Source: Nocardioides panzhihuensis
GTDB taxonomy: Bacteria; Actinomycetota; Actinomycetes; Propionibacteriales; Nocardioidaceae
NCBI RefSeq assembly: GCF_013408335.1
Contig: NZ_JACBZR010000001.1
Span: forward strand, 3,038,001 to 3,102,000
Direction: 5' to 3'
DNA: 64,000 nucleotides
How positions within the stretch are numbered: the stretch's first letter is position 1; every line of letters begins with the position of its first letter. Of this stretch, positions 13,690-33,103 are shown one piece after another. The notes beneath the pieces were generated by a model that saw nothing but the letters and a program-made list of their open reading frames with translations, was not told the origin of the DNA and did not search any database. The translations under genes and the position numbers were made by a program.

Positions 13690-13696
13690 CTCACCC

Positions 13697-14464
13697 TCAG
13701 CGCTCCCGAAAGGCCTCGAACGCCGACCGTGCCTTGTCGGAGCCGAGCACCAACGTCTGACTCAAGGCCTCGAGCTCCAGCGCGGACGGGAACGACCCGC
13801 TGGCGCTCTGGTGAAGGAGCTTCTTCGTCAGGGAAACCGCCAACCGCGACTCGGCGGAGATCCGGTGCGCCAGCCCTTGGGCGTGACTTCGCGCCTGGTC
13901 GGGTGTGTCGACGACGACGTTGACGAACCCCAGGTCGTACGCCGCGACCGCGTCGATCTCGTCCGCCAGCAGTATCAGCTCCTTGGCGCGCTGCATCCCG
14001 ACGATGCGAGGAAGTATGAACGCCCCACCGAAGTCCGGCACCAGCCCTCGCCGCAGGAACACCTGGCAGAACCGGGCGCTCCTGGAACAGACGACGAGGT
14101 CACACGCGATAGCGAGGTTGAAGGCACCACCGTAGGCAACTCCAGACACCGCAGCGATGATCGGCAGCGGGCTCTCCCACACGGCCCTGGCCGCGCGCTG
14201 GTACGCCCGCATGAACCGCAGGATCGCGTCGTCGTCCGACGGCCCGTGGGCGCTCAGCACCCCTTCCGCGTCGCCTCCCGCGGAGAAGTGCTCCCCCGCC
14301 CCGGTCAGGACGATGGCATGGATGTTCTCGTCGCGCTCCGCCATCTGGATCTGGTCGTGCAGTGCGTTAGCCGTCGACTCTGCCAGTGAGTTGAGGGACA
14401 TCGGCCCGTTCATCACGAGGGTCCGCACGCAGCCGTCGTCCACCACGTCGACGGTCGTCGCCAT
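13697..14464 (-). CDS. Crotonase-family enoyl-CoA hydratase/isomerase
   Basis: Protein of 255 residues; last gene of the long mce operon. The crotonase fold is shown by the oxyanion-hole segments GEHFSAGGDAEGV (58-69) and SGVAYGGAFNLAIACDLVV (107-125). Both classical catalytic glutamates are absent (GGAFN instead of GGxxE; Phe instead of the second Glu). LVPDFGG (141-147) instead carries Asp144, as in PaaG-like isomerases. So isomerase or another crotonase activity is more likely than simple hydration. Its ATG overlaps the stop of the small membrane protein gene (TGATG). Confidence 0.8.
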   Translation of the reverse strand: MATTVDVVDDGCVRTLVMNGPMSLNSLAESTANALHDQIQMAERDENIHAIVLTGAGEHFSAGGDAEGVLSAHGPSDDDAILRFMRAYQRAARAVWESPLPIIAAVSGVAYGGAFNLAIACDLVVCSRSARFCQVFLRRGLVPDFGGAFILPRIVGMQRAKELILLADEIDAVAAYDLGFVNVVVDTPDQARSHAQGLAHRISAESRLAVSLTKKLLHQSASGSFPSALELEALSQTLVLGSDKARSAFEAFRER

Positions 14465-14676
14465 CAGCGTGCCGCCAGAGGGACGACAGCGAGGACCGCG
14501 AACACCCCAGCCATCACCAGCATCGACCTCGCACCCCGGCGGATCCGGCGCTCATCGCGCGCACGGCGCTCCTCTGAGAGTCCTGGGGGGACCAGGCGGG
14601 CCGGGTTGTTGGATCCCCACAGCCCGAGCGCGAGGGAGATCAGGGCGATGGCTCCACTCACGAGCGTCGTGCTCAT
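14464..14676 (-). CDS. 70-residue membrane protein within the mce operon
   Basis: Small protein of 70 residues with two predicted membrane helices (about 3-19, LVSGAIALISLALGLWG, and about 50-66, SMLVMAGVFAVLAVVPL) joined by a very basic loop (EERRARDERRIRRGAR). Its start overlaps the foldase gene stop (ATGA) and its stop overlaps the crotonase start (TGATG), so it is almost certainly translated. I recognise no family. As part of the mce/RND/foldase group it may be a small accessory subunit. Confidence 0.65.
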   Translation of the reverse strand: MSTTLVSGAIALISLALGLWGSNNPARLVPPGLSEERRARDERRIRRGARSMLVMAGVFAVLAVVPLAAR

Positions 14677-15710
14677 GGCTGCTCCGTGGCCACTGCCGGT
14701 GGCTCGTTCGGGTCCTCGGGGCGGTAGGAGTCGGCGTACTCGACGTCGGCCTTCTTGATGCGGCCCTCGAGCCAGTCGCGCCAGGCCTCGAGGGCGCGCT
14801 CGGACCGCACGACATCGAGGGCTTGGTCCTCGACCTGGTCGAACGTCGGCTCCTTGCCGGGCACGATGCGGACGACCTGGCCGACATTCCACCCGAACTG
14901 CGTACGTACCGGACCGAAGACCGCTCCGCTCCGGGCTCCGAAGGCCGCCTTCGCGTAGTCTCCGGCCAGCGACCTCGCGGGGACCACGCCCAGTGCTCCA
15001 CCCTGGTCCCTGGTGGCGTCGTCCAGGCTGTTGGCACGGGCCAAGGCCGCGAAGTCCTCGCCCTTCCGAGCCCGCTGCACCACCGCCTGCGCGTCCTTGT
15101 CGGTCCGGACCACGATGTTGCGCAACTCCCTGCCTTCGGGGGTCATGAACCGGTCCGGGTGTGCCTCGTAGTAGTCGCGGGCGTCGGCGGCCGTCACGTC
15201 CGCGGCCGCATCCTTGGTGATCTTCTCGAACAGCAGCGCGACGGCCTGCTGGCGCTTCACCTCGTCGAGCACCGCCGCCTCGGTCACCCCGAAGTCCGCG
15301 AGCAGCTCGGTGAACGCCTCACGCGGATCCGCGCCCAGTTGCGACGCCACCATCTGGTCGAGGGTGTCGCGGGCACGCTTGTCAGAGACCGCGACGCCCT
15401 TGTCACGCGCCGCGTCGTCGAGCACCATGCTGACCGCGACTGCCTTGGCGGTGTCGCGCCGGAAGGCAGCTCGGCCGTCCTTCTTACCGGGTTCCTTGAT
15501 GCCGTAGAGCGCTCCGAGCACCTCCACACGCTCATCGAGGTCATCCTTGGTGACGACGGTGCCGTCGTACTCGAAGGCCGCGTCGTCCGGGAGGTCGCGG
15601 AGCTCGCGCACGCCGAGAACGGCTCCCGCGACCAGCACGGCCAGGACGAGTACGACTCCGACGGTCTTGGTGCCGAGTGGCCGCTGGGTGAGGAATACGG
15701 GCAGTTTCAT
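14673..15710 (-). CDS. Membrane-anchored SurA/PpiC-type peptidyl-prolyl isomerase
   Basis: Protein of 345 residues: an N-terminal membrane anchor at about 16-34 (TVGVVLVLAVLVAGAVLGV), a SurA_N-like chaperone region (FEYDGTVVTKDDLDERV through FEKITKDAAA), then a parvulin-type rotamase domain at about 195-295 (ELRNIVVRTDKDAQAVVQRA, then ALGVVPARSLAGDYAKAAFG and FGWNVGQVVRI). Such proteins fold exported proteins outside the membrane. Lying inside the mce operon and overlapping the RND gene, it may fold or assemble the Mce or RND periplasmic domains. That specific role is inference. Confidence 0.8.
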   Translation of the reverse strand: MKLPVFLTQRPLGTKTVGVVLVLAVLVAGAVLGVRELRDLPDDAAFEYDGTVVTKDDLDERVEVLGALYGIKEPGKKDGRAAFRRDTAKAVAVSMVLDDAARDKGVAVSDKRARDTLDQMVASQLGADPREAFTELLADFGVTEAAVLDEVKRQQAVALLFEKITKDAAADVTAADARDYYEAHPDRFMTPEGRELRNIVVRTDKDAQAVVQRARKGEDFAALARANSLDDATRDQGGALGVVPARSLAGDYAKAAFGARSGAVFGPVRTQFGWNVGQVVRIVPGKEPTFDQVEDQALDVVRSERALEAWRDWLEGRIKKADVEYADSYRPEDPNEPPAVATEQP

Positions 15711-17995
15711 ACGAGCACCTCTTCAGGGGATTTCGTGGGTTCGTTGGCGGGCAGGCTCTGTTCCGGCCCCGGGGCTGAGGGGAGCATTCGGACGACGTGG
15801 GCCGCGACGAAGGACAGGGCAACGGTCGCTGCGAGGAACAGACCGAAGTCACGGATGACCGCAAGTCCCGAGAACGCCAGCGCGAGGTATCCGCAGGCGG
15901 CCGCGACCGCTGCCACCATGACGGACCGCCCGAGCAGGACGGTGCGCGACGCCTTCGCGGCGCCGAGGAGAATGGTAAACTCGCACGCCGTGGCCGTGGC
16001 CAAGGACCCGAGCGCCACGGTGAGCGGAGTCAGTGGGACGCCCAGCAGCCATGCACCAGCAAAGCCCCAGCCCGTGGCGAGACCGGCGGCCACGACCGCG
16101 CGGAGAGCGTCGGAACGCCGCCGCAGCCCCACCAGGAGGACGAGCCCGGCGGCGGCGATCCCCGCCAGCGCGTCGAGGTAACGGTTCCCGGACACCAGCT
16201 CGTAGCTGCGAGACGTCACCACGGGCAGTCCCGCGAGGTCTGCCTCGACTCCCGAAGGAGGGTCGGGGATGGCCGAGCGGAGGTCGGCGAGCAGCGTACG
16301 TTGGGCCTCGACGTCCTCCAGCTCGATCCCGAAGCTGAGCACCGCCTGCCGGCCGTCGCTGCGCATCACCGAACCACGCAGGTACGGCGGCAGCTGCTCG
16401 AGCCCCGCCCGGATCTGCGCGGGGGTCGGATCGTCACCCAGGAAGCTCAGCAGGCTCGGGAGGCTCACGATCGGGTGCAGCCTGTCACTGAACCGGCGTA
16501 CGACCACCTCCTGCACCTCCCGCATCCATGCCAGCGACTCCGGGGACGTCACGTCACTGCCCCGGACCAGCACCTGCACCTCGCCGGCCGACCCCACGAG
16601 CTCCTCGGCATGGCGTACGTCCTCGAGTGCGGGAAGGCCCGCAGCCAACTGGTCGGGCTGCGACTCCACGTCGAGACCGGGCAGCGCGATCCAGCCTCCG
16701 AGGGCACACGCGATGGCTGCACCGACGATCCCGACCCTGGTCGCAAAGCCGTTGCGACCGGAGGGTTTCCTCACGGGTTCGCCAGCATCGCCCCCCGGCG
16801 ACGGGGCGTCGTCCGGAGACAGAGGTTTGGCCCTGCGGGCCAGGATCAGGCCGACACCTGTGGCTGCCACGACCCCCGAGGCCAGCGCGAGGCCGAGGTC
16901 GCGTACGAAGGGCACAGAGGAGACGGCCAGGGCGCCGAACCCCGCGGCGGCCGCCAGAGCAGTGACCACCACCTGACGGCGGTTGGCCCCTCGGACCAAG
17001 TATGCGGGGAAGTCGCTGCCTGTGCCCAGCACGATCGGCAGGAACGCCACGACACCGAGGGACAGTGGGTGGTCGAGCCAGCCGAAGGCAGCCAGGACGC
17101 CGGCAACCGCCACTGTGGTAGCTACCAGGGGCAGAAGTCGCGCACGTCGAGGCGACAGCCACGGCAGGAGCAGGTAGCAGGCGAGGATCAGGACCAGGCC
17201 GATGCCTCCGAGCAGCGGTATCTCCCGCGTCAGCACGTCGCCGAGTCCTGCCGCGACAACCGGCATGCCGGTCACGGTCACCCGACTCGTCTCGAGCCCG
17301 GCCTTGTCGACCGACTCTTCGACCTCTTCGACGAGGCGCTCGGTCGCGGCCTGGTCCAGGCTTTCGCGGGGGCGGACGATGATCGCGACGGCGTCCGCGC
17401 TGGGCACGACGAACCGCCACTGCTGCCGTGAACGACCGTCCTCGTCGAACACGACTGCCTGGACGAACCGTGGGTTGCGAAGGGTCGGCAGCCCCGCCGG
17501 AAGGGCCTTGACCAGAAGGCTGCCGTAGCGAACGTCGTACGCCTTGATGGCCTGCTCCCCGGCCTGCTTGACCTTCGCGGGCGACAGCCCAGCCTTCTCG
17601 GCGCGCTGCTCGGCACCCGCGCGCAACGCGTTCCGCCGGCCGGCGATCGCGGCCATCATGTTCTGCGCTTGGCCCGCCACCTGGTTGAGCACCGTGCCGG
17701 GGCCGTAGACGACGGCCACGTCGGGAAGTTGCGCCAATCGGCCCTCGAGGCCGACGAGGCGCTCGATCTGGTCGCCCTGCAGCAACGACCGCGGTTCGTC
17801 GGTCTCGGCCAGGATGACGACGGGGTCGCCACCGAACGAGCGGGCAGCCTCCAGGGAAGCCTCCAGACCCGGGTCTTCCACAGGCAGCAGCGACTGCGTG
17901 GTCGTGTCGGTGCGGACCTGGGCGAGGCCCGCCACCACCACCGCTACCACGACGGCCATCAGGATGCCCCCACCCAGGAGCCGCACCTTCCCCAT
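15707..17995 (-). CDS. RND/MMPL-family transporter in the mce operon
   Basis: Protein of 762 residues of the RND superfamily (MMPL/HpnN-like). The first helix (about 5-25) precedes a large extracytoplasmic loop. A block of about five helices (about 255-385) contains the sterol-sensing-like TGSDFPAYLVRGANRR segment. A second half repeats this plan (helix near 425, loop, helices at about 610-740). The family exports or transfers lipids using the proton gradient. It starts 2 bp after the last mce gene and overlaps the foldase gene by 4 bp, so it should be co-expressed with the importer. Substrate unknown. Confidence 0.8.
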   Translation of the reverse strand: MGKVRLLGGGILMAVVVAVVVAGLAQVRTDTTTQSLLPVEDPGLEASLEAARSFGGDPVVILAETDEPRSLLQGDQIERLVGLEGRLAQLPDVAVVYGPGTVLNQVAGQAQNMMAAIAGRRNALRAGAEQRAEKAGLSPAKVKQAGEQAIKAYDVRYGSLLVKALPAGLPTLRNPRFVQAVVFDEDGRSRQQWRFVVPSADAVAIIVRPRESLDQAATERLVEEVEESVDKAGLETSRVTVTGMPVVAAGLGDVLTREIPLLGGIGLVLILACYLLLPWLSPRRARLLPLVATTVAVAGVLAAFGWLDHPLSLGVVAFLPIVLGTGSDFPAYLVRGANRRQVVVTALAAAAGFGALAVSSVPFVRDLGLALASGVVAATGVGLILARRAKPLSPDDAPSPGGDAGEPVRKPSGRNGFATRVGIVGAAIACALGGWIALPGLDVESQPDQLAAGLPALEDVRHAEELVGSAGEVQVLVRGSDVTSPESLAWMREVQEVVVRRFSDRLHPIVSLPSLLSFLGDDPTPAQIRAGLEQLPPYLRGSVMRSDGRQAVLSFGIELEDVEAQRTLLADLRSAIPDPPSGVEADLAGLPVVTSRSYELVSGNRYLDALAGIAAAGLVLLVGLRRRSDALRAVVAAGLATGWGFAGAWLLGVPLTPLTVALGSLATATACEFTILLGAAKASRTVLLGRSVMVAAVAAACGYLALAFSGLAVIRDFGLFLAATVALSFVAAHVVRMLPSAPGPEQSLPANEPTKSPEEVLV

Positions 17996-17997
17996 GG

Positions 17998-19296
17998 TTA
18001 CCGAACCTGCCTCTCGACGCGCGGGTAATCACCCTTGAAGGGCCCGGGCCTCGCGCCGGAACCCGGCGCCGGGTAGGCGTTGGTGTAGTTGCCCAGCAGG
18101 TTGTTGGTCGAGAGCGGCAGCTGCGGCGAGTGGGTGTTCACCAGCGGGGTCAGCCGCAGGTAGTAGGAACCGTTCTCGTCGCGATAGTTGAGCACCGCGT
18201 TGAAGTTGGCGAAGTACGCGGCCAACTCCGGTCCGTAGGGCTTGATGTAGGAGAGCATCGGGTTGACGTCCGCCAGCGTCGCCTGTGCGGTCGGGATGGT
18301 CGCCCGGACGTCGTTGGAGAACGTGGGCACCCGGTCGAGCGTCGCGGGCGCCTGGTCGAGGACGCCCGAAAGGGGTTCCAGCATCCCGCGCAGGTCCTTG
18401 GTGGTGGCGGGGAGCTCGCCCAGTGCTGTGGTGAGGCCTGGTCCTGCGGCACGCAGGTCCTTCGCGACCGGACCGAGCGCGACCGACAGGCTCACGAGCG
18501 AGTCGCTCGCGGTCTGCGTGGCAGCCAGCGTCTCCGGCGCCTCGCGGAGGGTGGCCTCGATCGCCCCGCGCTGACCCGCAGTCGCACCCGTGACCTGGTT
18601 GGCGTTGTCGACGAGGTCGGCGATCTGGCCCTCGCCGGTGTCGAGTGCCTGCAACACCTGCGAGGTCTGCCGCGCGAGCTTGTCGAGGTCCTCGGACTGG
18701 GCAGCGATCGCGTCCAGAGCGGTGTGGCCCTCACGGCCGAGATCGCCCAGTCCGGTCATCAGCGTGTCGAGGTCACCCTCCGCGCCGGACGTTCCAGCGC
18801 CCAGCGAGCGGAGCAGCTCCCTCATGTCGCCGCGCGATTCCTCGTCCAGGCTGGCGAGGACGTCACGCAGCTGCACGCTGGGCCTCACCATGCCGGCGGG
18901 GAGCTCGGCGCCGGACGGGATCTCGGTGCCCTTGCCGGGGGTCAGGGCGAGGTAGGACTCGCCCACGAGCGAGCGTTCGGCGACCCGGAGCTCGGCTCCC
19001 TCGTGCAAGGGGGCGTACTCGTCGTCGAGCGCGAAGACGACCTCGGCCCCCTTGTCGCTCACCTCCACCGAACGCACCTGGCCGACCTTCACACCGGCGA
19101 CCTGCACCTGTGAGGCCTGGACGAGGTTGTCGACGTCGGGGATCACGACCGTGGCGGTGTACTCCTCACTGTCGATGACCGGTCGCTTGGCGCCCGTACC
19201 GCTGTACAGGATGAACATGATGATCGCGCAGACACCGAAGAACACCGCGAGCGTCACCATGCGGCCCGTGCGCTGAAGCAGGAGGGTCTTCATCAT
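17998..19296 (-). CDS. Mce family protein, sixth of six
   Basis: Protein of 432 residues. One N-terminal membrane helix (about 12-30) is followed by an MlaD/Mce domain (about 40-115, YTATVVIPDVDNLVQASQVQ and VQVAGVKVGQVRSVE). A long helical region then forms the substrate tunnel/needle, ending with SYIKPYGPELAAYFANFNAV. In mce importers six different Mce proteins form a hexameric periplasmic tunnel. By order this is the F position. The ATG overlaps the previous mce gene by 4 bp. Confidence 0.88.
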   Translation of the reverse strand: MMKTLLLQRTGRMVTLAVFFGVCAIIMFILYSGTGAKRPVIDSEEYTATVVIPDVDNLVQASQVQVAGVKVGQVRSVEVSDKGAEVVFALDDEYAPLHEGAELRVAERSLVGESYLALTPGKGTEIPSGAELPAGMVRPSVQLRDVLASLDEESRGDMRELLRSLGAGTSGAEGDLDTLMTGLGDLGREGHTALDAIAAQSEDLDKLARQTSQVLQALDTGEGQIADLVDNANQVTGATAGQRGAIEATLREAPETLAATQTASDSLVSLSVALGPVAKDLRAAGPGLTTALGELPATTKDLRGMLEPLSGVLDQAPATLDRVPTFSNDVRATIPTAQATLADVNPMLSYIKPYGPELAAYFANFNAVLNYRDENGSYYLRLTPLVNTHSPQLPLSTNNLLGNYTNAYPAPGSGARPGPFKGDYPRVERQVR

Positions 19297-20546
19297 CCTT
19301 CTCCTCTTCCCTGGTCAGGTGAATTGGGCAGTACGCCGGCACCCGGCAGCGGCACGATCAGGTGGCCACGGATGAGGCCGCCGTTGGCATCGCCTGCGCC
19401 GAAGACCGAGGAGGTGTTGTAGACGAATGCCTTCAGCGCGGTCAGGTAGCTCATCACTGTGCGGGTGTCGTGACGCAGCGGCGAGGTGATCTTCTCGATG
19501 TCGTCCAGCGACGTGGTCACGTCTGCCACCAGCGGCCGAAGATCGGCCACGACCGGACGTGCCTTCTCGAGCACCGGCTTGGCGGCGTCGAGCGTCTTGC
19601 CGAGGTTCCCCACCGTCGATCGGAAGCGCTTCAGCGAGCCCGGAAGCGTGTCCGAAGCGCTGCGCAGGTTGTCGAGCGTCGGGTCGAGCTCCTCCGTCAG
19701 AGCCTGGGTGCTGTTCAACGCCGCGCGGAGGTCGCCTGTGAGGCCAGGCAACTCCTTGAGGCTTGCCCGCAGGGCTTGATCGCTGTCAGCGAGCACCGCG
19801 AGCGTCGCCTGCGTCGCGTCGGCGAGGCGTCCGATCCGCTCATCGTTGCGGCCGACCGCCGCGGAGATGTCCGAGAGCGCGCTGACCAACGCCGCGATCT
19901 TCTCGCGGCGGGTCCGCAGCGCCTCGGCGACCGGCTGCACGGCCTGAAGGGTGTCGTTGGTGGCGCCGAGGCCCTGCGGCAGGTTCTGGGGCGCCCGGGC
20001 CAGCGCCACATCGGATTCCACCAGCAGATCGGTCAGCGCCAGCTGTGACCGCTCGTCGAGGTGCTCGAGGATCTCGTCGGCCTGCACCGGACGCGCGGTC
20101 TGGCTGACCGGGATGGCCTCGCCGTCCTGGAGCCTGCCGGCCGAGGGCGAACCCGGGTTGATCTCGACCTGCATCTCGTTGAGCGGGTTGTTGGGCCGCA
20201 GCACAGCACGGGCGTCACGGTAGACGTCGTACTCGCCCTCCAGCTTCATCGTGACCACGGCAGATCCGTCGTCGCTGGCCTTCGCTGTGGTCACCTTGCC
20301 GACCCGCACGCCCGCCATGGTGACGGAGGTCTGAGCGCTCGGGTTCAGCCCAGGGACCTCGGCGAACTCGGCCTTGACGAGCGTGCTGTCGCTCCACGGC
20401 GTGGTGCCGCCCAGATACGACTTGATGATCGCGGCTGCCACCACGCCCAGCACCATCAGGACAGCCAGGGCCGTCACGTCTCGGCCGAGGCCGGGAACGG
20501 TCTTGATCCGCTCCCAGTACGCGGCCAGCCTGCCTTGCTCGTTCAT
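19293..20546 (-). CDS. Mce family protein, fifth of six
   Basis: Protein of 417 residues with an N-terminal helix (about 25-43, ALAVLMVLGVVAAAIIKSY), an MlaD domain (about 55-130, FAEVPGLNPSAQTSVTMAGV then VRVGKVTTAKASDDGSAVV) and a long helical tail (LPGLTGDLRAALNSTQALTEEL). No lipobox Cys is visible, although E-type Mce proteins of mycobacteria are often lipoproteins. It overlaps both neighbours by 4 bp and is part of the hexameric lipid-import tunnel by family. Confidence 0.87.
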   Translation of the reverse strand: MNEQGRLAAYWERIKTVPGLGRDVTALAVLMVLGVVAAAIIKSYLGGTTPWSDSTLVKAEFAEVPGLNPSAQTSVTMAGVRVGKVTTAKASDDGSAVVTMKLEGEYDVYRDARAVLRPNNPLNEMQVEINPGSPSAGRLQDGEAIPVSQTARPVQADEILEHLDERSQLALTDLLVESDVALARAPQNLPQGLGATNDTLQAVQPVAEALRTRREKIAALVSALSDISAAVGRNDERIGRLADATQATLAVLADSDQALRASLKELPGLTGDLRAALNSTQALTEELDPTLDNLRSASDTLPGSLKRFRSTVGNLGKTLDAAKPVLEKARPVVADLRPLVADVTTSLDDIEKITSPLRHDTRTVMSYLTALKAFVYNTSSVFGAGDANGGLIRGHLIVPLPGAGVLPNSPDQGRGEG

Positions 20547-21991
20547 CGCTCACTCCTGGGAACCAGTGGAAGGGTCAGTTCGGACGGGCCTTCGGGCGCT
20601 GACCCCAAGGCACCGTCGCTGTGTGACGGCGAGGAACCGAGCGGAGGCGCCGGCTCTCCCTGGTTGGCGCCCTCCTGCGGGCCGGCGGGGAGCTGGTACC
20701 CCAGCAGCTCGAGATACTGCTCGATCGAGTGGCCGATGATGCCGCCAGGAGTGCTCAGTCCGACGCCGGCCATCAGGCGACCGTGAGCACCGTTCTTGTC
20801 GTGGTACTTGAACACGTCGGCGGTGTCGGAGAGGAGGTAGCCGACCTCCTTGTAGAGCGGGTGGTCGTTGCCACCCCCCTCGTAGACGCCGGTCCCGTGC
20901 CATGGAGACAGGACGGCCTTCTTCAGCGGCCCGTCGAGACGCTCGACCACCGGTCCCTCGATGTCTTCGAGGACGGAGGTGGCGCGACTGACTCCGGGCC
21001 GCAGGTCCTCGACGAGGGGGCGAGCGTCGTGGGCCACGACGCGCGCGTCCGCGATCACCGGCCGAGCCGTGACCAGCACGCCGTCCAGCTCGCGGAGGGT
21101 CGGCTCGAGCTCGCGCGCGGCGGGCCTGAAGTCCTCTGCCGTGGTCCGCAACCGGTCGAGCGTCCCGTCGAGATCGGCAAGGCCGGTCTCGGTCACGCGT
21201 AGCGTCTCAGGCGCCTGGTCCAGGGTGCCGGAGATCGCCTTGCGGTGGTCTGCGAGCGCAGTTGTCGTCACCGAGAGGTCGTCGATGATCGTGACGAGCT
21301 GACCTCGCTCGCGGGTCAACTCCGTCGCGGTGGCGTTGAGCCCAGTGACCAGACGCGTCAGATCCGTTGAGGGCTGGTTGCCTCGCAGCGCTCCGAGAAC
21401 CTGGGAGGTGGGTTCCAAGGCGGCAGGAGCGCTGTCGAGCAGCTCCCCGACCTCGCGTTGGCCGCCGCGGTCGAGGGTCTTCTCCAGGCTGCCGACCGTG
21501 CCTCGCACCGACTCTGTGGCCTCCGGAGTCACGGCCGAGAGGACCTTGTCGAGCTCTACGGGGACGGTGGTCCGCTTCGCCGGGATGGTGGCGCCTTCCG
21601 CGGCAGCTCCGTCCTTGCCACCCTGGACCAGCTCGACGTAGTACTTGCCGCCGAGCACCAGCGTGGGCCGGATGTTGGCCTTCGGCTGCGTGCCCAGCTT
21701 GTCGAGGGTGCCGTCGTCGAGCTTCATGACGACCTTCGCGGCATTACCGTCGGCCTGCTCGACGCCGGTCACCTTGCCGACCTCGACGCCGGCGAGCTTG
21801 ACCACACTCTCATGCGGAACCAGCTTGTAGTCCTGCCGGAACTCCGCGCTGAGCGGCTCCCCCGAGGCGAGCGTCGTCTGCACCTTCGCCCGGTTGAAGG
21901 CGAACAGCGAGAAGGCCAGGAGCACCGCCATGACGATCACGCCGACAGTCTTCGGCGATGACAGGACCAACTTCGGACGAGACGTTGTCAT
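20543..21991 (-). CDS. Mce family protein, fourth of six
   Basis: Protein of 482 residues, the longest of the six. It has an N-terminal helix (about 13-29), an MlaD domain (about 40-120, YKLVPHESVVKLAGVEVGKV and LGGKYYVELVQGGKDG), an extended helical region, and a Pro/Ser-rich tail after residue 430 (PAGPQEGANQGEPAPPLGSS). The tail resembles the disordered C-terminus seen in D-type Mce proteins. Start shares base 21991 with the previous stop. Confidence 0.87.
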   Translation of the reverse strand: MTTSRPKLVLSSPKTVGVIVMAVLLAFSLFAFNRAKVQTTLASGEPLSAEFRQDYKLVPHESVVKLAGVEVGKVTGVEQADGNAAKVVMKLDDGTLDKLGTQPKANIRPTLVLGGKYYVELVQGGKDGAAAEGATIPAKRTTVPVELDKVLSAVTPEATESVRGTVGSLEKTLDRGGQREVGELLDSAPAALEPTSQVLGALRGNQPSTDLTRLVTGLNATATELTRERGQLVTIIDDLSVTTTALADHRKAISGTLDQAPETLRVTETGLADLDGTLDRLRTTAEDFRPAARELEPTLRELDGVLVTARPVIADARVVAHDARPLVEDLRPGVSRATSVLEDIEGPVVERLDGPLKKAVLSPWHGTGVYEGGGNDHPLYKEVGYLLSDTADVFKYHDKNGAHGRLMAGVGLSTPGGIIGHSIEQYLELLGYQLPAGPQEGANQGEPAPPLGSSPSHSDGALGSAPEGPSELTLPLVPRSER

Positions 21992-25879: not shown

Positions 25880-25885
25880 CGTCGT

Positions 25886-26728
25886 TCAGTCCATTCCGAG
25901 GGGGCCGACGGAGTCTCCGGACAGGAACTGCCGCACGAAGGGCATGTCCGAGTTGAAGGCCTCCTCCGTCTCGCCGTAGTGAATGAGCTTTCCTTGCCAG
26001 ACCACGCCCACGTAGTCACTGACCTTGCGGGCGGTCCGGATGTCGTGGGTCACGAGCACGTAGGTTCCACCGTGCTCGGCGTGCATCTTGAGGATCAGGT
26101 CGTTGAGCAGGCTGGTGCGCACCGGGTCGAGGCCGGAGTCGGGCTCGTCGAACATCACGACACTCGGGTTGAGGACCAGGGCGCGTGCGAAGCCGGCACG
26201 CTTCTTCATTCCGCCAGACACCTCGCCGGGGAACTTCGTGACTGCCCGGGCGAGTCCCACCTCGTCCAGGTGACCCATCACGATCTTGCGGATCTCCGAC
26301 TCGCGCTTGGTGGTGTGCTTGCGCAGCGGGAACGCGACGTTGTCGTAGATGTTCATGGAGCCGAAGAGCGCGCCGTCCTGGAACAGGATTCCCATCCGCT
26401 TGCGGATCTCCTGCCGCTCCTTCGCGTTGATGCTCCACATGTCCTGCCCCAGCACCTCCACCACCCCGGAGTCAGGCTCGAGCAGGCCGACGATGTGCTT
26501 GAGCAGCACGCTCTTGCCCGTGCCCGAGGGACCCAGAACCGTGGTGATCGCGTCGTCGACGAAGTTCAGGTTGAGCCCGGTGAGGACGTCGAAGGAGCCG
26601 AACGACTTCTTGACCTCCTTGATCCGGACGCTGTGGTCCAGGTTGGGGTCGTGGTCGACGATGACGCCCTGAGAGTAGATCTCCTCGTACGAGCGGTCCT
26701 CGTCGAGGCTGGCGGTGTGAGAGGACAT
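25886..26728 (-). CDS. mceG: MceG/Mkl-type ABC transporter ATPase
   Basis: Protein of 280 residues, the ATPase that powers Mce import. Visible are Walker A GPSGTGKS (66-73), a Q-loop in ILFQDGALF, the signature VSGGMKKR, Walker B VVMFDEPDSGLD and the switch His in VLVTHDIRT. LFQDGALF and SGGMKKRAGFARAL are typical of MlaF/MceG proteins. In many mycolata this ATPase is encoded away from the mce loci; here it sits between the permease and the first mce gene, 39 bp after yrbE. The symbol reflects family likeness. Confidence 0.9.
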   Translation of the reverse strand: MSSHTASLDEDRSYEEIYSQGVIVDHDPNLDHSVRIKEVKKSFGSFDVLTGLNLNFVDDAITTVLGPSGTGKSVLLKHIVGLLEPDSGVVEVLGQDMWSINAKERQEIRKRMGILFQDGALFGSMNIYDNVAFPLRKHTTKRESEIRKIVMGHLDEVGLARAVTKFPGEVSGGMKKRAGFARALVLNPSVVMFDEPDSGLDPVRTSLLNDLILKMHAEHGGTYVLVTHDIRTARKVSDYVGVVWQGKLIHYGETEEAFNSDMPFVRQFLSGDSVGPLGMD

Positions 26729-26767
26729 GCGGGTTTCCTTTCGGTGGAGTCCGAACCAGACGTGCCG

Positions 26768-27631
26768 TCAGAAGCTGATCGGTGCTCGTGTCAAGGCGCC
26801 GAAGAAGAGCTGTTGGAAGACCGCGCCGAGCACGCTGACGATGACGAGGTTGATCACCATCGACTTTGCGGTGGCCTTGCCGACCCCCACGGGGCCGCCG
26901 CTCGCGTTGAAGCCGTAGTAGCAACCGACCAGGACGATGAGGAGGCCCATGATCGTGCCCTGAAGCAGTGAGAGCAGGAGGTCCTGCTGGGTCGTGAACG
27001 ACCAGAACACCGACAGATAGCCGCCACCAGAAACGCTGTGGAACAGGTAGACGTTCATGTAGTAGCCCAGGATGTACATCAGGCCGGTGCCGGTGACGAA
27101 CATGAACGGCGTGACGATGATCATCGCGAGCACCCGAGTGTTGACGAGATACGCCCGGGAGTCGAGTCCCATGACGTCGAGGGCGTCGATCTCTTCGCTG
27201 ATCCGCATGGAGCCGAGCTCCGCGACCAGGCCGCACGCGACCTTGGCCGAGAGGATCCACCCCCACATCTCCGGAGCGACGGTGTAGTCGCCGGTCGAAC
27301 TGAACACGGCGGTGTAGCCGCCAGCGCCGAGCTGGGCGAGCAGGTAGTGCGCCTCCAAGGCGATCTCCGCGGCGAGCATGCACATCATGAACCAGATGAT
27401 GAACGTGCTCTTGAGGATGATGATCCCGGCCTGGCGCAGCACCTCCGTGCCGTAGTGCCGGACGTCCGGCATCGACTTGACGATCTGGATGCCGAACAGC
27501 GCGATGCCACCGAGATCGGCGATCAGCGAGCTTCCGTCGCTGTAGCCACCCATGCCACCCGAGCTGTTGACGCTGAGCTCTGGGCCCTCGTCCTCATCGG
27601 TGGTGGGGTTCGTGACGTGCGTCGTGGTCAT
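26768..27631 (-). CDS. yrbEB: YrbE/MlaE-type permease, second
   Basis: Protein of 287 residues with about five membrane helices, of the MlaE/YrbE family. Diagnostic is the cytoplasmic coupling segment EEIDALDVMGLDSRAYLVNT, followed by helix VLAMIIVTPFMFVTGTGLMY. A polar N-terminal extension of about 35 residues rich in Asp, Glu and Gly precedes the first helix. It pairs with the YrbE encoded 9 bp upstream to form the membrane core bound by MceG. Confidence 0.9.
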   Translation of the reverse strand: MTTTHVTNPTTDEDEGPELSVNSSGGMGGYSDGSSLIADLGGIALFGIQIVKSMPDVRHYGTEVLRQAGIIILKSTFIIWFMMCMLAAEIALEAHYLLAQLGAGGYTAVFSSTGDYTVAPEMWGWILSAKVACGLVAELGSMRISEEIDALDVMGLDSRAYLVNTRVLAMIIVTPFMFVTGTGLMYILGYYMNVYLFHSVSGGGYLSVFWSFTTQQDLLLSLLQGTIMGLLIVLVGCYYGFNASGGPVGVGKATAKSMVINLVIVSVLGAVFQQLFFGALTRAPISF

Positions 27632-27640
27632 GTTCTTCCC

Positions 27641-28504
27641 CTACCTGCTGATCAGCATCTCGGGGTTGAGCCCGAGCATGGTGGCGTTGACGATGAAGTT
27701 GACGACCCAGACGGCGGCGAACGAGAGGACGACCGCCTCGTTGACCGCTCGGCCGACGCCCTCGGCCCCACCCTTGGCGTTGAGCCCCTTCTGCGCGGAG
27801 ACCACGCCGATGAAGAGGCCGATCAGCGTGCACTTGACCGTGGTGCCGACGAGCTCGGGCACCGTCATGGAGCCCAGCAGGTTGCCCAGGAAGGCGCCGG
27901 GAGACGTGGTGCCGAGCCAGGTCGCGGAGATCATCGCCATGCTCATGCCGAGGAGGCTGCCGACGATGTTGAAGGCGACCATCATCACGGTGATCGCGAT
28001 GACGCGCGGCAGCACCAGGGTGCGGATGGCGTCGATGCCGAGGACGGTGAAGGCGTCGAGCTCTTCGCGGATCTTCCGGGCGCCGAGGTCGGCCGTCATC
28101 GCAGTGCCCATGACGCCCGCGACGGCCATGCCGGTCGCGAAGGGCGAGATCTCACGGAGGCTGGCGAAGACGAAGTAGGTCCCGAGCCGGTTGCCGGCGC
28201 CGAGGAGGCCGACCAGGTCGTAGGCGTAGTTGGCGATCAGGAACGAGAATCCGCCCACGGCCAGCGTGACCGGGAGCCAGCAGAACTGCAGCATGTAGAA
28301 CATCTCGTCGCGGGTCGCGGTCCAGTAGCCCCGGGGCTCCTTGACCGCGGTCTTCACGAGATAGCCGAGCAGCCTGCCCGCCTCGCCCATGTCGACGAGG
28401 ATGCGTTGCACGCCCGCCGGGGCTCGGTGCATCATCCGGCCCGATGGCGTCAGCGGCCGCTGTGGTTGCTCAGCCGCCGGGGGCGGCTGGGTGTCGAGGG
28501 CCAT
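27641..28504 (-). CDS. yrbEA: YrbE/MlaE-type permease, first
   Basis: Protein of 287 residues with MlaE/YrbE features: the coupling helix REELDAFTVLGIDAIRTLVL, followed by PRVIAITVMMVAFNIVGSLL, and about five membrane segments. The N-terminal 35 residues are Pro/Gln-rich. Its ATG shares a base with the stop of the flavin reductase gene (TGATG), tying the importer to the upstream enzymes in one transcript. It forms the permease heterodimer with the next gene product. Confidence 0.9.
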   Translation of the reverse strand: MALDTQPPPAAEQPQRPLTPSGRMMHRAPAGVQRILVDMGEAGRLLGYLVKTAVKEPRGYWTATRDEMFYMLQFCWLPVTLAVGGFSFLIANYAYDLVGLLGAGNRLGTYFVFASLREISPFATGMAVAGVMGTAMTADLGARKIREELDAFTVLGIDAIRTLVLPRVIAITVMMVAFNIVGSLLGMSMAMISATWLGTTSPGAFLGNLLGSMTVPELVGTTVKCTLIGLFIGVVSAQKGLNAKGGAEGVGRAVNEAVVLSFAAVWVVNFIVNATMLGLNPEMLISR

Positions 28505-29022
28505 CAGAAGGCCCCCTGCATCGGAAAGTGGTCCAGGTGCCGGAACTCACGCTGGAAGTAGAGGAGGGCCGGCCGGTCATCCACATCGATGTCGAGCACC
28601 TTGGCGACGAGGATGGTGTGGTCACCTCCGTCGTACCGCTGGTGTGCCTCGCACTCGATGAGCACGGCTGCATCGACCAGTACGGGAACACCGCGGTGGT
28701 CGGGCACGAACTCGCCGCCGGCGAACTTGTCCACCCCCTTGGTCGCGAACCGGGTCACGAGGTCGACGTGGACAGCACCCGCGACCTGGATCGACCACTG
28801 GTCGTTGTCGATGAAGGCGTCGTGGCACTGCGCGGTCTTGGCGAGGCAGACCAGCACCAAGGGCGGGTCGAGCGAGACGGAGCAGAACGAGCTCGCCGCG
28901 AATCCGCGCGGCTCGCCGTCCGGGCCGGCCGTCGTCATCATGGTGACGCCGCTGGGAAAGGCCGACATGGCCGCACGGAACTTCTGATCGACGTTCGTCG
29001 GGGGGGTCACGGTGCTGGTCAT
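28504..29022 (-). CDS. Flavin reductase (HpaC/HsaB-like), NAD(P)H:flavin
   Basis: Protein of 172 residues of the flavin-reductase-like FMN-binding family, which supplies reduced FMN or FAD to two-component monooxygenases. Seen: FPSGVTMMTTAGPDGEPRGF and AASSFCSVSLDPPLVLVCLA, the standard flavin-binding core, and a C-terminal LLYFQREFRHLD. Length is usual. It overlaps the RibB-like gene by 4 bp and touches yrbEA. No obvious flavin-dependent oxygenase component lies in the window, so the partner may be encoded elsewhere. Confidence 0.85.
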   Translation of the reverse strand: MTSTVTPPTNVDQKFRAAMSAFPSGVTMMTTAGPDGEPRGFAASSFCSVSLDPPLVLVCLAKTAQCHDAFIDNDQWSIQVAGAVHVDLVTRFATKGVDKFAGGEFVPDHRGVPVLVDAAVLIECEAHQRYDGGDHTILVAKVLDIDVDDRPALLYFQREFRHLDHFPMQGAF

Positions 29023-29741
29023 GATGCTCTCCGTTCCGGCGCGCAGTTGGCGCCGAGGTCATGGTCGAGTCGGGATCCTGAGCGGTTGGTCACGGCGTGG
29101 AACTCGCCGTGCAGGGTCGACATGCGAACCCGCACGACGTCGGCGACCGAGAGAAGCACCAGGCCGTGGTCGCCCGCGAAGCGCACCAGGTCCGGCATCC
29201 GCGCCATGGTGCCGTCGTCGTTGGTGATCTCGGCGAGGACTCCGGCCGGCTGCAGGTCTGCGAGCCGGCACAGGTCGACCGCGGCCTCCGTGTGCCCTGC
29301 CCGCTGGAGGACTCCCCCGGGACGCGCCCGAAGCGGGAACACATGTCCCGGCCTGGTGAACAGATCGCCCCCGAACCGGGAGTCGGCAAGGGCGCGCGCG
29401 GTGGCCGCCCGGTCCAGGGCGGAGATGCCCGTCGAGGCCGGGTTCGCAAGGTCCACGGATACCGTGAACGCGGTCCCGCGTGGGTCGCTCGCGGCCTCGA
29501 CCATGGCCGGCAGGCCGAGCTGATCGAGCCGGCTGCCGGCCATGCCGACGCACACCAGGCCACTGGTGTGACGGATCACGAAGGCCATCGACTCCGCCGT
29601 CATGTGCTCGGCGGCGAAGATCAGGTCGCCCTCGTTCTCGCGGTCCTCGTCATCGAAGACGACGACCCCCCGACCGAGAAGCAGCTCACGGCAAGCCGCC
29701 TCGACGAGGTCTTTGCTGCTCGCTGACACGTGCTGGCGCAT
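29019..29741 (-). CDS. ribB: 3,4-dihydroxy-2-butanone-4-phosphate synthase-like protein
   Basis: Protein of 240 residues matching RibB, which converts ribulose 5-phosphate to the four-carbon precursor of riboflavin. Seen: DDEDRENEGDLI (30-41), the acidic metal/substrate loop, and RAGHTEAAVDLCRL near residue 150. There is no fused GTP cyclohydrolase II domain. It lies inside a catabolic/mce operon next to a flavin reductase, not in a rib operon, so it may be a dedicated booster of flavin supply. Enzyme identity is firm; role is inference. Confidence 0.85.
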   Translation of the reverse strand: MRQHVSASSKDLVEAACRELLLGRGVVVFDDEDRENEGDLIFAAEHMTAESMAFVIRHTSGLVCVGMAGSRLDQLGLPAMVEAASDPRGTAFTVSVDLANPASTGISALDRAATARALADSRFGGDLFTRPGHVFPLRARPGGVLQRAGHTEAAVDLCRLADLQPAGVLAEITNDDGTMARMPDLVRFAGDHGLVLLSVADVVRVRMSTLHGEFHAVTNRSGSRLDHDLGANCAPERRAS

Positions 29742-29768
29742 GACTGCTCCTCGGTCAGAGTTGCGCGG

Positions 29769-31274
29769 TCAGGCGGGGGTGCCGAGGACGAGGCCGTACG
29801 CCTTGTTCTCGACGCCGCCCGAGCGGTCGACGGAGATGTACTTCTGCTCCGTGTACTGGTCCAGGGCGTTGGGGCCACCCTCGCGACCGAGGCCGCTCTG
29901 CTTGTAGCCGCCGAAGGGGTACGCCGGGTGGAGGACATGCCAGTCGTTGACGTAGACCATGCCGGCCTCCAGCTGGCGGGCAACGTCGAGGACGCGCGCC
30001 TCGTCGGTGCCCCAGACACCCGCGGACAGGCCGTACTCGGTGTCGTTGGCGATCGCCACGGCCTCCTCGACGGTCTCGTAGCTGAGAACACTGAGGACCG
30101 GTCCGAAGACCTCCTCGCAGGCGACCGTCATCTCGGGAGTGACGTCGGTGAGGATGGTCGGCTCGACGAAGTAGCCGTTGGCGAACTCGTCGCCAGCCGG
30201 GGCGGACCCGCCGATGGCGACCTTGGCGCCCTGCGTCTGGGCCTTGGCGATGTGTGCGAGCACCCGGTCACGCTGCTCGGCGGTGATCAGCGGACCGATG
30301 TCGGTGGCGAGCTCGAGCGGGTCGCCGATCTTCATCGTGGCCACCCGGGCGACCAGCCGCTCGACGATCTCGTCCTTGCGCTCGCTCGGGACGAGCAGTC
30401 GGGTGCCGGCCTCGCAGGCTTCACCGTTGTTCGCCATGCAGGCGTAGATGGCGCCGTCGATGGCAACATCGAGGTCGGCGTCGTCGAGCAGGATGTTCGG
30501 GCCCTTGCCACCGAGCTCGAGGGTGACCCGCTTCATGTTGTCGGCGGAGGCGCCGAGGATGCTCTTGCCGACCTCGGTGGAGCCGGTGAAGCCGACCTTG
30601 CGGACGTCGGGGTGCTGGCTGAGGCGGGCGCCGGCGTCGTGGCCGTCGCCGACCACCACGGTGAGGACGCCCTTCGGCAGGCCTGCGACCTCGAACTCCT
30701 TCATGAGCTCGAGCGCGAGCAACGGCGCGTGCTCGTCCGGTTTGAGGACCACGGTGTTGCCGGCGGCCAGCGCTGGGGTGACCTTCCAGACGATCGTCAG
30801 CAGCGGGATGTTCCAGGGCACGATCGCGCCGACGACGCCGAGCGGCTCGCGGCGGAGGATGCCCTCAGCCGGGACCGGGCCGATCTCCGGGCCGGCCTTC
30901 TCGAACTCGTACTCGAGGGTCTGGGCGGCGACGGACTGCATGTTGGCGATCGAGAGGCCGACATGCAGCGCGCCGGTGACGCGGATGGTCGCGCCGTTCT
31001 CTCTGCTCTGCAGGGCGGCCAGCTCCTCGATGCGACCGGCCAGGCTTGCGGCGACCGTGTTGATGATCGCGGCACGCTCGGCCGGCGGCGTGTTGCGCCA
31101 GACACCGCTCTTGTCGGCGGCCTTCGCCGCGGCGACCGCCGCGTCGATCTCGGCAGCGCCACCCTTCGCCACGGTGGCCACGAGCTCGCCCGTCGCGGGG
31201 CTGCGCACCTCGAGGGTCTCGTCGGTCTCGACGATGTCGCCGTTGATCTGGAGGGGGTAGTGCGGAACGCTCAT
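29769..31274 (-). CDS. Aldehyde dehydrogenase family protein
   Basis: NAD(P)-dependent aldehyde dehydrogenase of 501 residues, the usual family length. Seen: PWNIPLLTIVWKVTPALAAG (cofactor region), FTGSTEVGK, the catalytic Glu in LELGGKGPN and the catalytic Cys in NNGEACEAGTR. The canonical NxGQxCxA context is altered to NGEACEA. It probably oxidises an aldehyde made during catabolism of the imported substrate. It lies 27 bp from each of its neighbours in the mce operon. Confidence 0.88.
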   Translation of the reverse strand: MSVPHYPLQINGDIVETDETLEVRSPATGELVATVAKGGAAEIDAAVAAAKAADKSGVWRNTPPAERAAIINTVAASLAGRIEELAALQSRENGATIRVTGALHVGLSIANMQSVAAQTLEYEFEKAGPEIGPVPAEGILRREPLGVVGAIVPWNIPLLTIVWKVTPALAAGNTVVLKPDEHAPLLALELMKEFEVAGLPKGVLTVVVGDGHDAGARLSQHPDVRKVGFTGSTEVGKSILGASADNMKRVTLELGGKGPNILLDDADLDVAIDGAIYACMANNGEACEAGTRLLVPSERKDEIVERLVARVATMKIGDPLELATDIGPLITAEQRDRVLAHIAKAQTQGAKVAIGGSAPAGDEFANGYFVEPTILTDVTPEMTVACEEVFGPVLSVLSYETVEEAVAIANDTEYGLSAGVWGTDEARVLDVARQLEAGMVYVNDWHVLHPAYPFGGYKQSGLGREGGPNALDQYTEQKYISVDRSGGVENKAYGLVLGTPA

Positions 31275-31301
31275 CGGATACTCCTGTTGGTGGTGGTTGT
31301 C

Positions 31302-32948
31302 TCAGCCGACCTGGCGGTCGCGGCCCTGCCAGAAGGGAGCCCGCAGGGTCTTCTTGTCGACCTTGCCGGCGGGGTTGACGGGCAGCTCGTCGAGGAAGTC
31401 GACGGTCTTGGGCGCCGAGACCGGCCCCAGGGCCGCCTTCACCCGAGCCTTCAGCCGCGCCACCAGCTCGTCGCCGGCGGTGCTGCGGTCCTTGACGACG
31501 ACGAAGGCGTGCACCGCCTCGCCCCACTTTTCGTGCGGGATGCCGACGACGGCGACCTGTGCGACGTCGGCGTCCTCGAGGAGCACGTCCTCGACCTGGC
31601 GCGGGAAGACGTTGAACCCGCCGCTGACGACCATGTCCTTCTTGCGGTCGACCAGGTAGAGGAAGCCGTCGTCGTCGAGCCGGCCGATGTCGCCTGTGTG
31701 CACCCAGCCGCCACGGAGCGCCTCGGCGTTGCGCGACGCGTCGACGTACCCGAGCATCTGGCCGAGCTGCTTGGAGCAGATCTCGCCGATCTCGCCGACC
31801 GGGAGGACGTTGTCCTCCTCGTCCTGGATGGTGACCTGGGTGAACGGCAGCGGACGGCCGCCGGATGCCAGTCGCCTGACGTCCTCGTCGGTGTCGACCC
31901 GGTGGTCGGTCTTGCGCAGGCAGGACACGTATCCGGGCTCGGTGCCGGCGTAGGTCTGGATGAAGATCGGGCCGAAGACCTCGAGCGCGTCCTTGAGGCG
32001 GTCGGGGGCGATGGGCGAACCCGCGTAGATCATCGTCTGCAGCGAGGAGAGGTCGTAGGAGTCACGCTTCGGGTGGTCCACCAGCATGTAGATGATCGTC
32101 GGAACGACCGCGGTCGCCGTGACCTTCTCGCGCTCGACGGCGGAGAGGAGCGTCTCGACCTCGAGCCCCGGCAGCATCACGTTGGTGCCTCCCCGCAGGA
32201 ACGTCGGGTGGACGAAGATCTGGGTGAAGTGGGTCAGCGGGGCGCCGTGCGCGAAGACCTCCCCCTGCTGGATGTCACCGATCTCGAGGCCGGCGGTGAT
32301 GCTGTAGTGACACCAGGTGAAGTGGGACTGGACGACGCCCTTGGGCTCGCCGGTGCTGCCGGAGGTGAAGAGCACGTACGCCTCGTCGTGCTCGTCCAGC
32401 GCGACGTCAGGCCGCTCGGTCGGCTGGCCGGAGACCAGGGCCTCGAACGCGTGGTCAGCGGAGGATTCGACGTCGCCGCCGACGCGGATGAAGCGACCAA
32501 GCTTCGGCAGCTCGGCCCGCATCTCCTCGACCACGGCGTCGAACGAGGAGTGGTAGATCAGCGTGGTGGCCTCGGTCTGGTCGAGGTTGGCGCGGTGGAC
32601 GGCGGCTGCCGCCCGACCGGGCATCTGCACGAGGACCGCGCCGGCCTTCCAGATGCCGTGCTGGCTCGGGATGAACTCCAACGTGTTGGGGAGCAGCAGC
32701 CCGACGCGCTCACCCTTCCGCACGCCGAGGGAGACCAGTGCGTTGGCGATCTGGTTGGACCAGTCGCGCAGCTCGCCGTAGGTGATCCGCCGGTCTCCGT
32801 CGACGACGGCGACGGAGTTCGTGTAGTACCCGCATGCCCTGTCCAGGACGTCTGGCATCGTGCCCCACATGGCCCCTGCTCTCTGCTGCATTGTCGCTAC
32901 TGGTGTTGGTCGCGCGGTGGTGACCAGGTGCTCTTTGCCGGCCACCAC
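31302..32948 (-). CDS. AMP-forming acyl-CoA synthetase, first gene of mce operon
   Basis: Protein of 548 residues that activates a carboxylic acid as acyl-AMP and then acyl-CoA. Seen: P-loop TSGSTGEPKG (195-204), TYAGTEPGY in the acyl pocket region, GGWVHTGDIGRLDDDGFLYL (A8/hinge) and NPAGKVDKK with the catalytic Lys529. The start is the GTG at 32948, preceded by GGAGG with 6-nt spacing. A C-run/G-run element lies about 65 bp upstream. As the promoter-proximal gene of the import operon it likely activates the imported substrate. Confidence 0.88.
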   Translation of the reverse strand: MVAGKEHLVTTARPTPVATMQQRAGAMWGTMPDVLDRACGYYTNSVAVVDGDRRITYGELRDWSNQIANALVSLGVRKGERVGLLLPNTLEFIPSQHGIWKAGAVLVQMPGRAAAAVHRANLDQTEATTLIYHSSFDAVVEEMRAELPKLGRFIRVGGDVESSADHAFEALVSGQPTERPDVALDEHDEAYVLFTSGSTGEPKGVVQSHFTWCHYSITAGLEIGDIQQGEVFAHGAPLTHFTQIFVHPTFLRGGTNVMLPGLEVETLLSAVEREKVTATAVVPTIIYMLVDHPKRDSYDLSSLQTMIYAGSPIAPDRLKDALEVFGPIFIQTYAGTEPGYVSCLRKTDHRVDTDEDVRRLASGGRPLPFTQVTIQDEEDNVLPVGEIGEICSKQLGQMLGYVDASRNAEALRGGWVHTGDIGRLDDDGFLYLVDRKKDMVVSGGFNVFPRQVEDVLLEDADVAQVAVVGIPHEKWGEAVHAFVVVKDRSTAGDELVARLKARVKAALGPVSAPKTVDFLDELPVNPAGKVDKKTLRAPFWQGRDRQVG

Positions 32949-33010
32949 CGCGGTCCTCCGAACCTAGATCTGGCGGTGTGACGTGGGCGACACCTCAGGG
33001 GAGGAACAGG

Positions 33011-33028
33011 CCCCTCCCATGGGGTGAC
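33011..33028 (-). promoter_or_regulatory. C-run/G-run element A, mce operon promoter
   Basis: On the minus strand this reads TCACCCCATGGGAGGGG, about 63 bp upstream of the first gene of the mce operon. Similar elements precede the genes at 34066, 35999 and 37003. It is a candidate activator-binding site. Confidence 0.45.
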
Positions 33029-33055
33029 CCACTTCACAGAGCGGAAAAATGACTC

Positions 33056-33085: not shown

Positions 33086-33103
33086 GTGGGGGTCGCGCGT
33101 AGG

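Follow-up and report, generated by a model that had tools for sequence, protein, structure and literature searches.

A candidate RND-type subtype of actinobacterial mce operons carrying an RND/MMPL-like transporter and a PpiC-type protein

The closest described relatives of the system treated here are the mycobacterial Mce1 transporter (YrbE1A/B, MceG, Mce1A-F; PDB 8fed, 8fee and 8fef) and the canonical mce operons of other actinobacteria. The solved Mce1 complex of Mycobacterium smegmatis is the basis for the view that six Mce proteins build a tube mounted on an ABC transporter made of YrbE and MceG (PMC9882608). According to the available text of Casali and Riley (2007, PMC1810536), all non-mycobacterial Actinomycetales species that have mce genes possess one mce operon with an ATPase gene directly upstream, Nocardioides sp. 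JS614 with its linked mkl being one example, and Mas genes are found downstream of most mce operons. Small membrane proteins, among them Mce1N (PMC10517005) and LucB (PMC9882608), have been described as regulators or subunits of Mce complexes. Here, we analyze an mce locus of Nocardioides panzhihuensis in a 64,000-nucleotide stretch of contig NZ_JACBZR010000001.1 (positions 3,038,001 to 3,102,000; hereafter the window), in which the mce genes are followed by genes for an RND/MMPL-like transporter and a SurA_N/PpiC-type protein. The same arrangement, yrbEA-yrbEB-mceG-mceABCDEF-RND-ppiC, often followed by a gene for a 70-residue membrane protein (tm70), was found in related genomes, and by gene order and protein similarity it is best regarded as a separate actinobacterial mce subtype, for which we use the name RND-type Mce. 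Linked ATPases and small Mce accessory proteins are already known, and what appears to be new is the RND and PpiC proteins as conserved parts of an mce module; in the open-access literature, covered through titles and abstract openings and with subscription journals mostly outside it, we recognized no description of mce operons with RND or PpiC genes among their conserved components.

The window locus has the composition of an Mce ABC transporter, with two YrbE permeases, six Mce proteins and an Mkl/MceG-type ATPase, all encoded on the minus strand. The permeases YrbEA (27641..28504) and YrbEB (26768..27631; Pfam MlaE, 164.5 bits) belong to the MlaE family, and the ATPase (25886..26728), a member of the RND-type branch described below, matches Pfam ABC_tran. 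The Mce proteins MceA (24656..25879; 33 bits to the Mce chain 8fed_B), MceB (23289..24659), MceC (21991..23292), MceD (20543..21991), MceE (19293..20546) and MceF (17998..19296; Pfam MlaD, 52.7 bits, above cut-off) all match TIGR00996 with 86.7-136.4 bits, each under the 140.5-bit cut-off of this profile. In genome scans, the locus yields six PF02470 (MlaD) and two PF02405 (MlaE) matches, all above cut-off. The remaining core genes encode the 762-residue RND/MMPL-like protein (15707..17995) and the PpiC-type protein (14673..15710). Thus, the locus shares with Mce1 the two YrbE, the six Mce proteins and an ATPase of the MceG type, but differs from it in the position of the ATPase gene between yrbEB and mceA, in the RND, PpiC and tm70 genes after mceF, and in a MceE without a lipobox pattern. 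Its likeness to the canonical non-mycobacterial operons consists in the linked ATPase gene, which in those loci lies directly upstream of the operon (PMC1810536).

These genes belong to a single minus-strand gene run at 13697-32948, in which neighbors overlap by 1-4 bp or are spaced by 2-39 bp, the largest gap being 39 bp. In the order of transcription, the run consists of genes for an acyl-CoA ligase, an aldehyde dehydrogenase-like protein, a RibB-like protein and a flavin reductase, followed by yrbEA, yrbEB, mceG, mceA-F, the RND/MMPL-like gene, the SurA_N/PpiC gene, the 70-residue gene and a crotonase gene. The original prediction, made from the letters of the window, described this run accurately as to genes, strand and positions, with the four metabolic genes at its start lying inside its coordinates but unnamed. 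It also presented the linked ATPase as a distinguishing feature; this part had to be given up, since such ATPases are already reported for non-mycobacterial Actinomycetales (PMC1810536), and what differs here is the location between yrbEB and mceA. A separate promoter before position 17995, which had been named as an outcome that would speak against a joint unit, has no intergenic room, as only 2 bp separate mceF from the RND gene; a promoter could still lie within mceF. A scan of the run, including the sequence before the RND gene, found no sigma70-like promoter, but with merely 0.5 matches expected by chance it has no power here. Upstream, the run is bounded, just before the ligase gene, by a terminator-like hairpin on the minus strand (33055-33086), an inverted repeat with a 14 bp stem and a T-rich tail. 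The terminator scan of 13400-33300 returned eight sites compared with 5.6 +/- 2.9 in shuffled sequence, so that only this strong hairpin carries weight; it is the sole minus-strand site, the remaining seven being on the plus strand, and no minus-strand terminator-like hairpin was found inside the run.

The subtype was delineated by comparison of 145 related genomes. The RND protein, the RND-type MceG and PpiC gave 19 matches each, with the window included, and all were in the same 10 genomes (thresholds E <=1e-95 for RND-type and canonical MceG and E <=1e-15 for PpiC). The 18 RND homologues outside the window have at least 41% identity, and every one of them lies inside an mce operon; in all 18 loci yrbEA, yrbEB, mceG, mceA-F, RND and ppiC follow one another in identical order, as judged by stop codons. 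The conserved co-occurrence of the RND and foldase genes with mce genes, on which the original prediction turned, is thereby confirmed, and the opposite outcome, in which orthologous loci of close relatives would be without them, was not observed. Canonical MceG is far more widespread (112 of the 145 genomes) and is present in 9 of the 10 RND-positive genomes as well. In genome G041, where four RND-type mce loci are present, no canonical MceG was detected at E 1e-95, and for this reason the subtype may be able to stand alone. G041 is also a possible test organism for RND-type Mce.

At the places examined, the linkage does not extend to more distant RND proteins. In a sample of the class, searched with one RND protein across 296 genomes, the next-nearest RNDs (family f21) show 28-33% identity, and no yrbE or mceA-F genes were found near them at any of the eight places examined, out of 18; two of these eight stretches end at a contig edge, and three contain a match of 70-75 bits to the MceG query. 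The mce linkage therefore appears specific to the branch that includes the window protein. The possibility that the window RND is a member of a widespread RND family that lies here by accident was considered and rejected, given the absence of mce genes near the distant relatives at the eight of 18 places examined and the fact that the window protein is the single match of its kind in its own genome at E 1e-3.

When the RND alignment and one RND motif were used to scan GTDB species genomes more widely, 97 relatives were found, of which 80 loci were kept; this wider set is not independent of the previous one, 15 of whose 18 loci recur in it. By hand count, these loci come from Nocardioides (25), Amycolatopsis and Pseudonocardia (11 each), Haloechinothrix (6), Marmoricola (4), Aeromicrobium, Sciscionella and Actinophytocola (3 each), and Frankia and Protofrankia (2 each), the last 10 being from Saccharopolyspora, Prauserella, Actinomycetospora and less precisely named metagenome-assembled genomes. 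No locus from Mycobacterium, Nocardia, Rhodococcus or Streptomyces was among the 80 relatives kept from this one-motif scan. The 11 core genes are complete in 65 of the 80 loci, and a script found them in order in 64 of these. The 65th, L102, contains two RND-type operons in tandem, the first ppiC being followed by yrbEA-yrbEB-mceG-mceA-mceB-mceC of the second, an arrangement that confuses the script. The mceF gene was detected in 78 loci and lies upstream of the RND gene in 76 of the 80 by a strict position test, and ppiC lies downstream of it in 76. Among the 15 incomplete loci, L079, L138, L141 and L151 end at a contig edge, and in nine others yrbEA is missing where the flank ends; one of these nine, L150 from a draft Frankia genome, also lacks yrbEB, and its RND match is partial and ppiC is absent. 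In L080, mceB was also not detected. Pairwise distances between RND proteins, calculated for the 65 complete loci and the window, correlate with those of MceF (0.85), PpiC (0.85), MceA (0.81), MceG (0.65) and YrbEA (0.51), with none of 200 permutations reaching the value in any of these cases; those of PpiC correlate with RND (0.85), MceA (0.79) and MceF (0.79). The closer tracking of MceF, PpiC and MceA than of MceG and YrbEA is what would be expected if the RND protein worked with the Mce tube.

The window locus also stands apart within its own genome, where 36 Mce and 12 YrbE genes form six mce loci. A phmmer search with the window proteins (E 1e-3, 20-kb stretches) detected neither RND nor PpiC in any of the other five. 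The Mce proteins of those loci score at most 58 bits against the window set, compared with at least 205 bits for RND-linked loci of relatives. In the five other loci, the mce genes are followed by short open reading frames (ORFs) with, by eye, one N-terminal hydrophobic stretch; these are Mas-like by position only and match no Pfam family at cut-off. Judged by position and gene assignments, with no Mas profile run, Mas genes do not follow the window mce genes, and the RND (2 bp away), PpiC, tm70 and crotonase genes occupy this place instead. MceE of actinobacterial Mce transporters is a lipoprotein. In the RND-linked subtype, the lipobox pattern was found in one of 77 MceE proteins, and the window MceE lacks it, whereas of the ORFs at the MceE position in the five other loci of the genome four have it, the ORF start of the fifth being uncertain; the pattern used is loose and also matches 21 of 78 MceF proteins.

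The ATPases support the same separation. One canonical MceG of this genome (L012) scores 406 bits against the M. smegmatis MceG chain 8fed_G, compared with 269 bits for the window MceG. In a tree of 35 RND-type MceG, three canonical MceG and six other ABC ATPases, the RND-type proteins form one clade with support of 0.879, which is joined with the three canonical proteins at 0.925, apart from the six others; the tree is rooted on one of these six, which are not monophyletic. Elsewhere in the genome, at L070 (15236-17005; contig C1, about 4577.7-4579.5 kb), a single 589-residue frame spans matches to an MceG-type ATPase and to YrbE, and so represents a natural MceG-YrbEA fusion. Ten MceG matches with 60-65% identity, that of L070 included, sit in open frames of 595-631 residues, and the fusion may recur in relatives.

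The RND/MMPL-like protein passes the Pfam MMPL threshold narrowly (22.7 bits; cut-off 20.5) and, with 127.4 bits, is under the curated 351.9-bit cut-off of the HAE3 profile TIGR00921. Proteins of the RND/MMPL superfamily have 12 transmembrane (TM) segments, with large loops after TM1 and TM7, and the mean hydropathy of 80 sequences agrees with this layout, its 16 raw peaks having been grouped by the analyst into 12 segments (1+5, 1+5) with two large loops. Profile searches identified MmpL5, MmpL4 and HpnN-type proteins as solved relatives (E 5e-10 to 1e-6). RND pumps usually use acidic proton-relay residues in TM4 and TM10. In the alignment of the window and 79 of the 80 wider-scan proteins, from which the partial L150 was dropped, the TM10 residue Glu672 is kept in 78 of 80 sequences and glycines 324 and 326 in 78 and 77, and at the position of TM4 Asp328, 49 sequences share the Asp, 26 have Tyr and five carry other residues. 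The window protein thus shares with MmpL4/MmpL5, HpnN and HAE3 a distant sequence match and the 1+5/1+5 hydropathy grouping, but differs from them in its score below the HAE3 cut-off, the Glu-Phe pair in TM10, the Asp or Tyr in TM4 and the linkage to mce genes. At the column of residue 328, most members of one group (49 of 80) have Asp-Phe and those of another (26) Tyr-Tyr, and one other column, 102, clearly differs between the two groups.

The PpiC-type protein combines a SurA-like N-domain (SurA_N) with one parvulin domain (Rotamase_2, 81.7 bits, and Rotamase, 55.6 bits, both above cut-off), features that it shares with PrsA/SurA/PpiC foldases, and by hydropathy has one N-terminal hydrophobic segment. 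It differs from those foldases in this single segment, in the lack of a lipobox pattern in the window protein, in a conserved C-terminal tail and in its parvulin active site. The two parvulin histidines are described as highly conserved in all parvulins in the available text of PMC2678132; when aligned to PrsA 4wo7, both positions of the window protein are Asn (N198 and N275). In the alignment of the window with 69 of 76 PpiC sequences (L076, L095, L104, L112, L134, L138 and L148 were left out), 67 of the 70 sequences have Asn at position 198 and 64 have it at position 275, in place of the active-site histidines.

The frequent 12th gene, tm70 (14464..14676, minus strand), encodes 70 residues with two hydrophobic segments flanking a short basic loop with a conserved W-G ... 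L ... R-R-G stretch. A hidden Markov model, built iteratively from the same loci, matched 54 of the 80 wider-scan loci and 9 of the 18 loci from the 145 genomes. The window tm70 has no Pfam match at E 0.001, and the best among the 27 members of the alignment (the window and 26 of the 54) does no better than E 0.012; homologues are named hypothetical or uncharacterized where the source gives a name. Mce1N (PMC10517005) is likewise small with two predicted membrane helices, the comparison resting on size and hydrophobic layout; relative to Mce1N and LucB, tm70 is distinguished by its 70-residue length, its short basic loop and the lack of space for a C-terminal cytoplasmic domain. The idea of tm70 as an obligatory member was rejected, as it was undetected in 26 of the 80 loci; in 23 of these, ppiC is present and at least about 440 bp follow it with no convincing profile match. 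In L102 and L116, unrelated small hydrophobic ORFs occupy the place of tm70.

Taken together, we consider it probable that a single Mce lipid-transport module, most likely serving uptake, includes RND, PpiC and often tm70 as dedicated components. By analogy with the M. smegmatis Mce1 complex, the six Mce proteins would form an extracytoplasmic hydrophobic tube on the YrbEA/YrbEB permease driven by MceG. The RND protein would be located in the membrane beside or on the Mce assembly, where it could use the proton-motive force to pass a lipid-like substrate from the outer leaflet or envelope to the tube or back, acting as a proton-driven partner that feeds or clears it. PpiC, held by its single membrane helix, would serve the large extracytoplasmic domains of the Mce and RND proteins as a dedicated chaperone or scaffold, probably more than as an ordinary prolyl isomerase, and tm70 may be an optional regulatory or stabilizing subunit. 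Because acyl-CoA ligase, aldehyde dehydrogenase-like and crotonase genes are part of the run, the net direction would most likely be inward, bringing in a lipid or hydrophobic acid for catabolism.

Several observations weigh against this interpretation. Gene linkage is no proof of a shared complex, and chromosomal linkage by itself can raise distance correlations. The subtype appears patchy, with strong RND matches in 3 of the 296 genomes of the class sample, where the match in G397 consists of two fragments on contigs C211 and C212. Two Pseudonocardia loci look like real exceptions: L122 has mce and RND genes, with mceG and ppiC undetected, and in L114 the RND gene is divergent from yrbEA/yrbEB/mceA-like ORFs, with no mceF or ppiC. 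The catabolic neighbors vary, ligase-like and aldehyde dehydrogenase-like ORFs being present on the RND strand in 17 of the 80 loci each. As the TM4 acid is Asp in only 49 of 80 sequences, proton coupling may have been lost in a third of the RND proteins. Finally, the His-to-Asn change in PpiC does not prove the loss of isomerase activity, because the Pin1 histidines were not essential in work cited by PMC2678132.

The strongest alternative, although we regard it as rather unlikely, is a paired export arm, that is, an RND protein separate from the Mce importer that pumps out a related lipid, a toxic acid or a catabolic by-product and shares with the importer only regulation and substrate class. 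Gene linkage would fit this arrangement equally well, several of the PDB sequences found by profile (MmpL5, MmpL4 and HpnN-type) are named exporters, and the names given in databases include 'predicted RND superfamily exporter protein'. However, if the exporter were free-standing, some homologues should be encoded on their own, whereas all 18 found outside the window in the 145 genomes are in mce operons; the RND distances also track those of MceA and MceF closely, and the lack of mce linkage among the 28-33% relatives at the eight of 18 places examined suggests that the association is specific to this branch. A less probable version, which we doubt strongly, limits both proteins to assembly: the RND protein would be a lipid handler or scaffold with partly lost proton coupling, PpiC would fold the six Mce proteins, and neither would move substrate. 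The replacement of the TM4 Asp by Tyr in 26 sequences, the Asn residues at both parvulin positions and the tracking of RND, MceA and MceF by PpiC distances are consistent with it, but the retention of the TM10 Glu and of glycines 324 and 326 suggests a working relay in most members. The idea of chance neighbors or hitch-hikers in a catabolic island, to which the variable flanking catabolic genes and the displacement of the RND gene from mceF in L114 might point, is very improbable in view of the 19:19:19 co-occurrence, the 18 of 18 ordered loci and the presence of ppiC after the RND gene in 76 of 80 loci, which represent several families, and chance adjacency of RND and PpiC was rejected on co-occurrence, synteny and wider-scan counts.

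Returning to RND, PpiC and tm70 as parts of one Mce module, a bolder form of this proposal can be put forward only tentatively. RND-type Mce could be one physical machine energized twice, by ATP at MceG and by the proton-motive force at an integral RND protein, with its own histidine-pair-less parvulin as an assembly chaperone; it would represent a separately evolved branch of Mce importers that works in cells of the Nocardioides type, which are generally regarded as lacking a mycolic-acid outer membrane. This reasoning about the envelope may fail for some carriers, because Pseudonocardiaceae with LucB are counted among double-membraned bacteria in the available text of PMC9882608. The subtype bears on how Mce systems move substrate into and out of the tube and on the role of Mce in actinobacteria without a mycolic-acid envelope, and its nearly fixed RND and chaperone-like parts provide a natural experiment on whether a second energized membrane protein is required by Mce tubes. 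It is accessible in environmental Nocardioides, of which one sampled genome, G041, shows this MceG type alone at the threshold used. In the loci examined, proteins that databases label as 'RND transporter' or 'MMPL family transporter' belong to an Mce operon.

The other genes of the run, all on the minus strand, are accessory and outside the conserved core, and hitch-hiking is likely for all five. They encode, from the first gene, the acyl-CoA ligase (31302..32948; Pfam AMP-binding, 252.9 bits), the aldehyde dehydrogenase-like protein (29769..31274; recognized by eye from ORF and sequence, with no family library scan), the DHBP synthase (RibB)-like protein (29019..29741; Pfam DHBP_synthase, 260.4 bits), the flavin reductase (28504..29022; Pfam Flavin_Reduct, 133.6 bits) and, as the last gene, the crotonase/enoyl-CoA hydratase (13697..14464; ECH_1, 153.4 bits). 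Strong homologues of both the RibB-like protein and the flavin reductase are present in L050 and L051, the two nearest loci; for the flavin reductase, weak matches (38-48 bits) were also seen in L062 and L064. The two genes (28504-29741) lie directly upstream of yrbEA, as if a flavin-dependent monooxygenase were part of the pathway. A plus-strand gene at 12421-13689, convergent with the run and 7 bp away from the stop codon of its last gene, the crotonase, encodes a 422-residue protein with two TetR_N stretches and is a candidate regulator. Further away, a minus-strand gene at 2330-5473 encodes a 1047-residue protein in which B12-binding, MeaB-type GTPase and methylmalonyl-CoA mutase domains are combined, a layout that we take to be IcmF-like.

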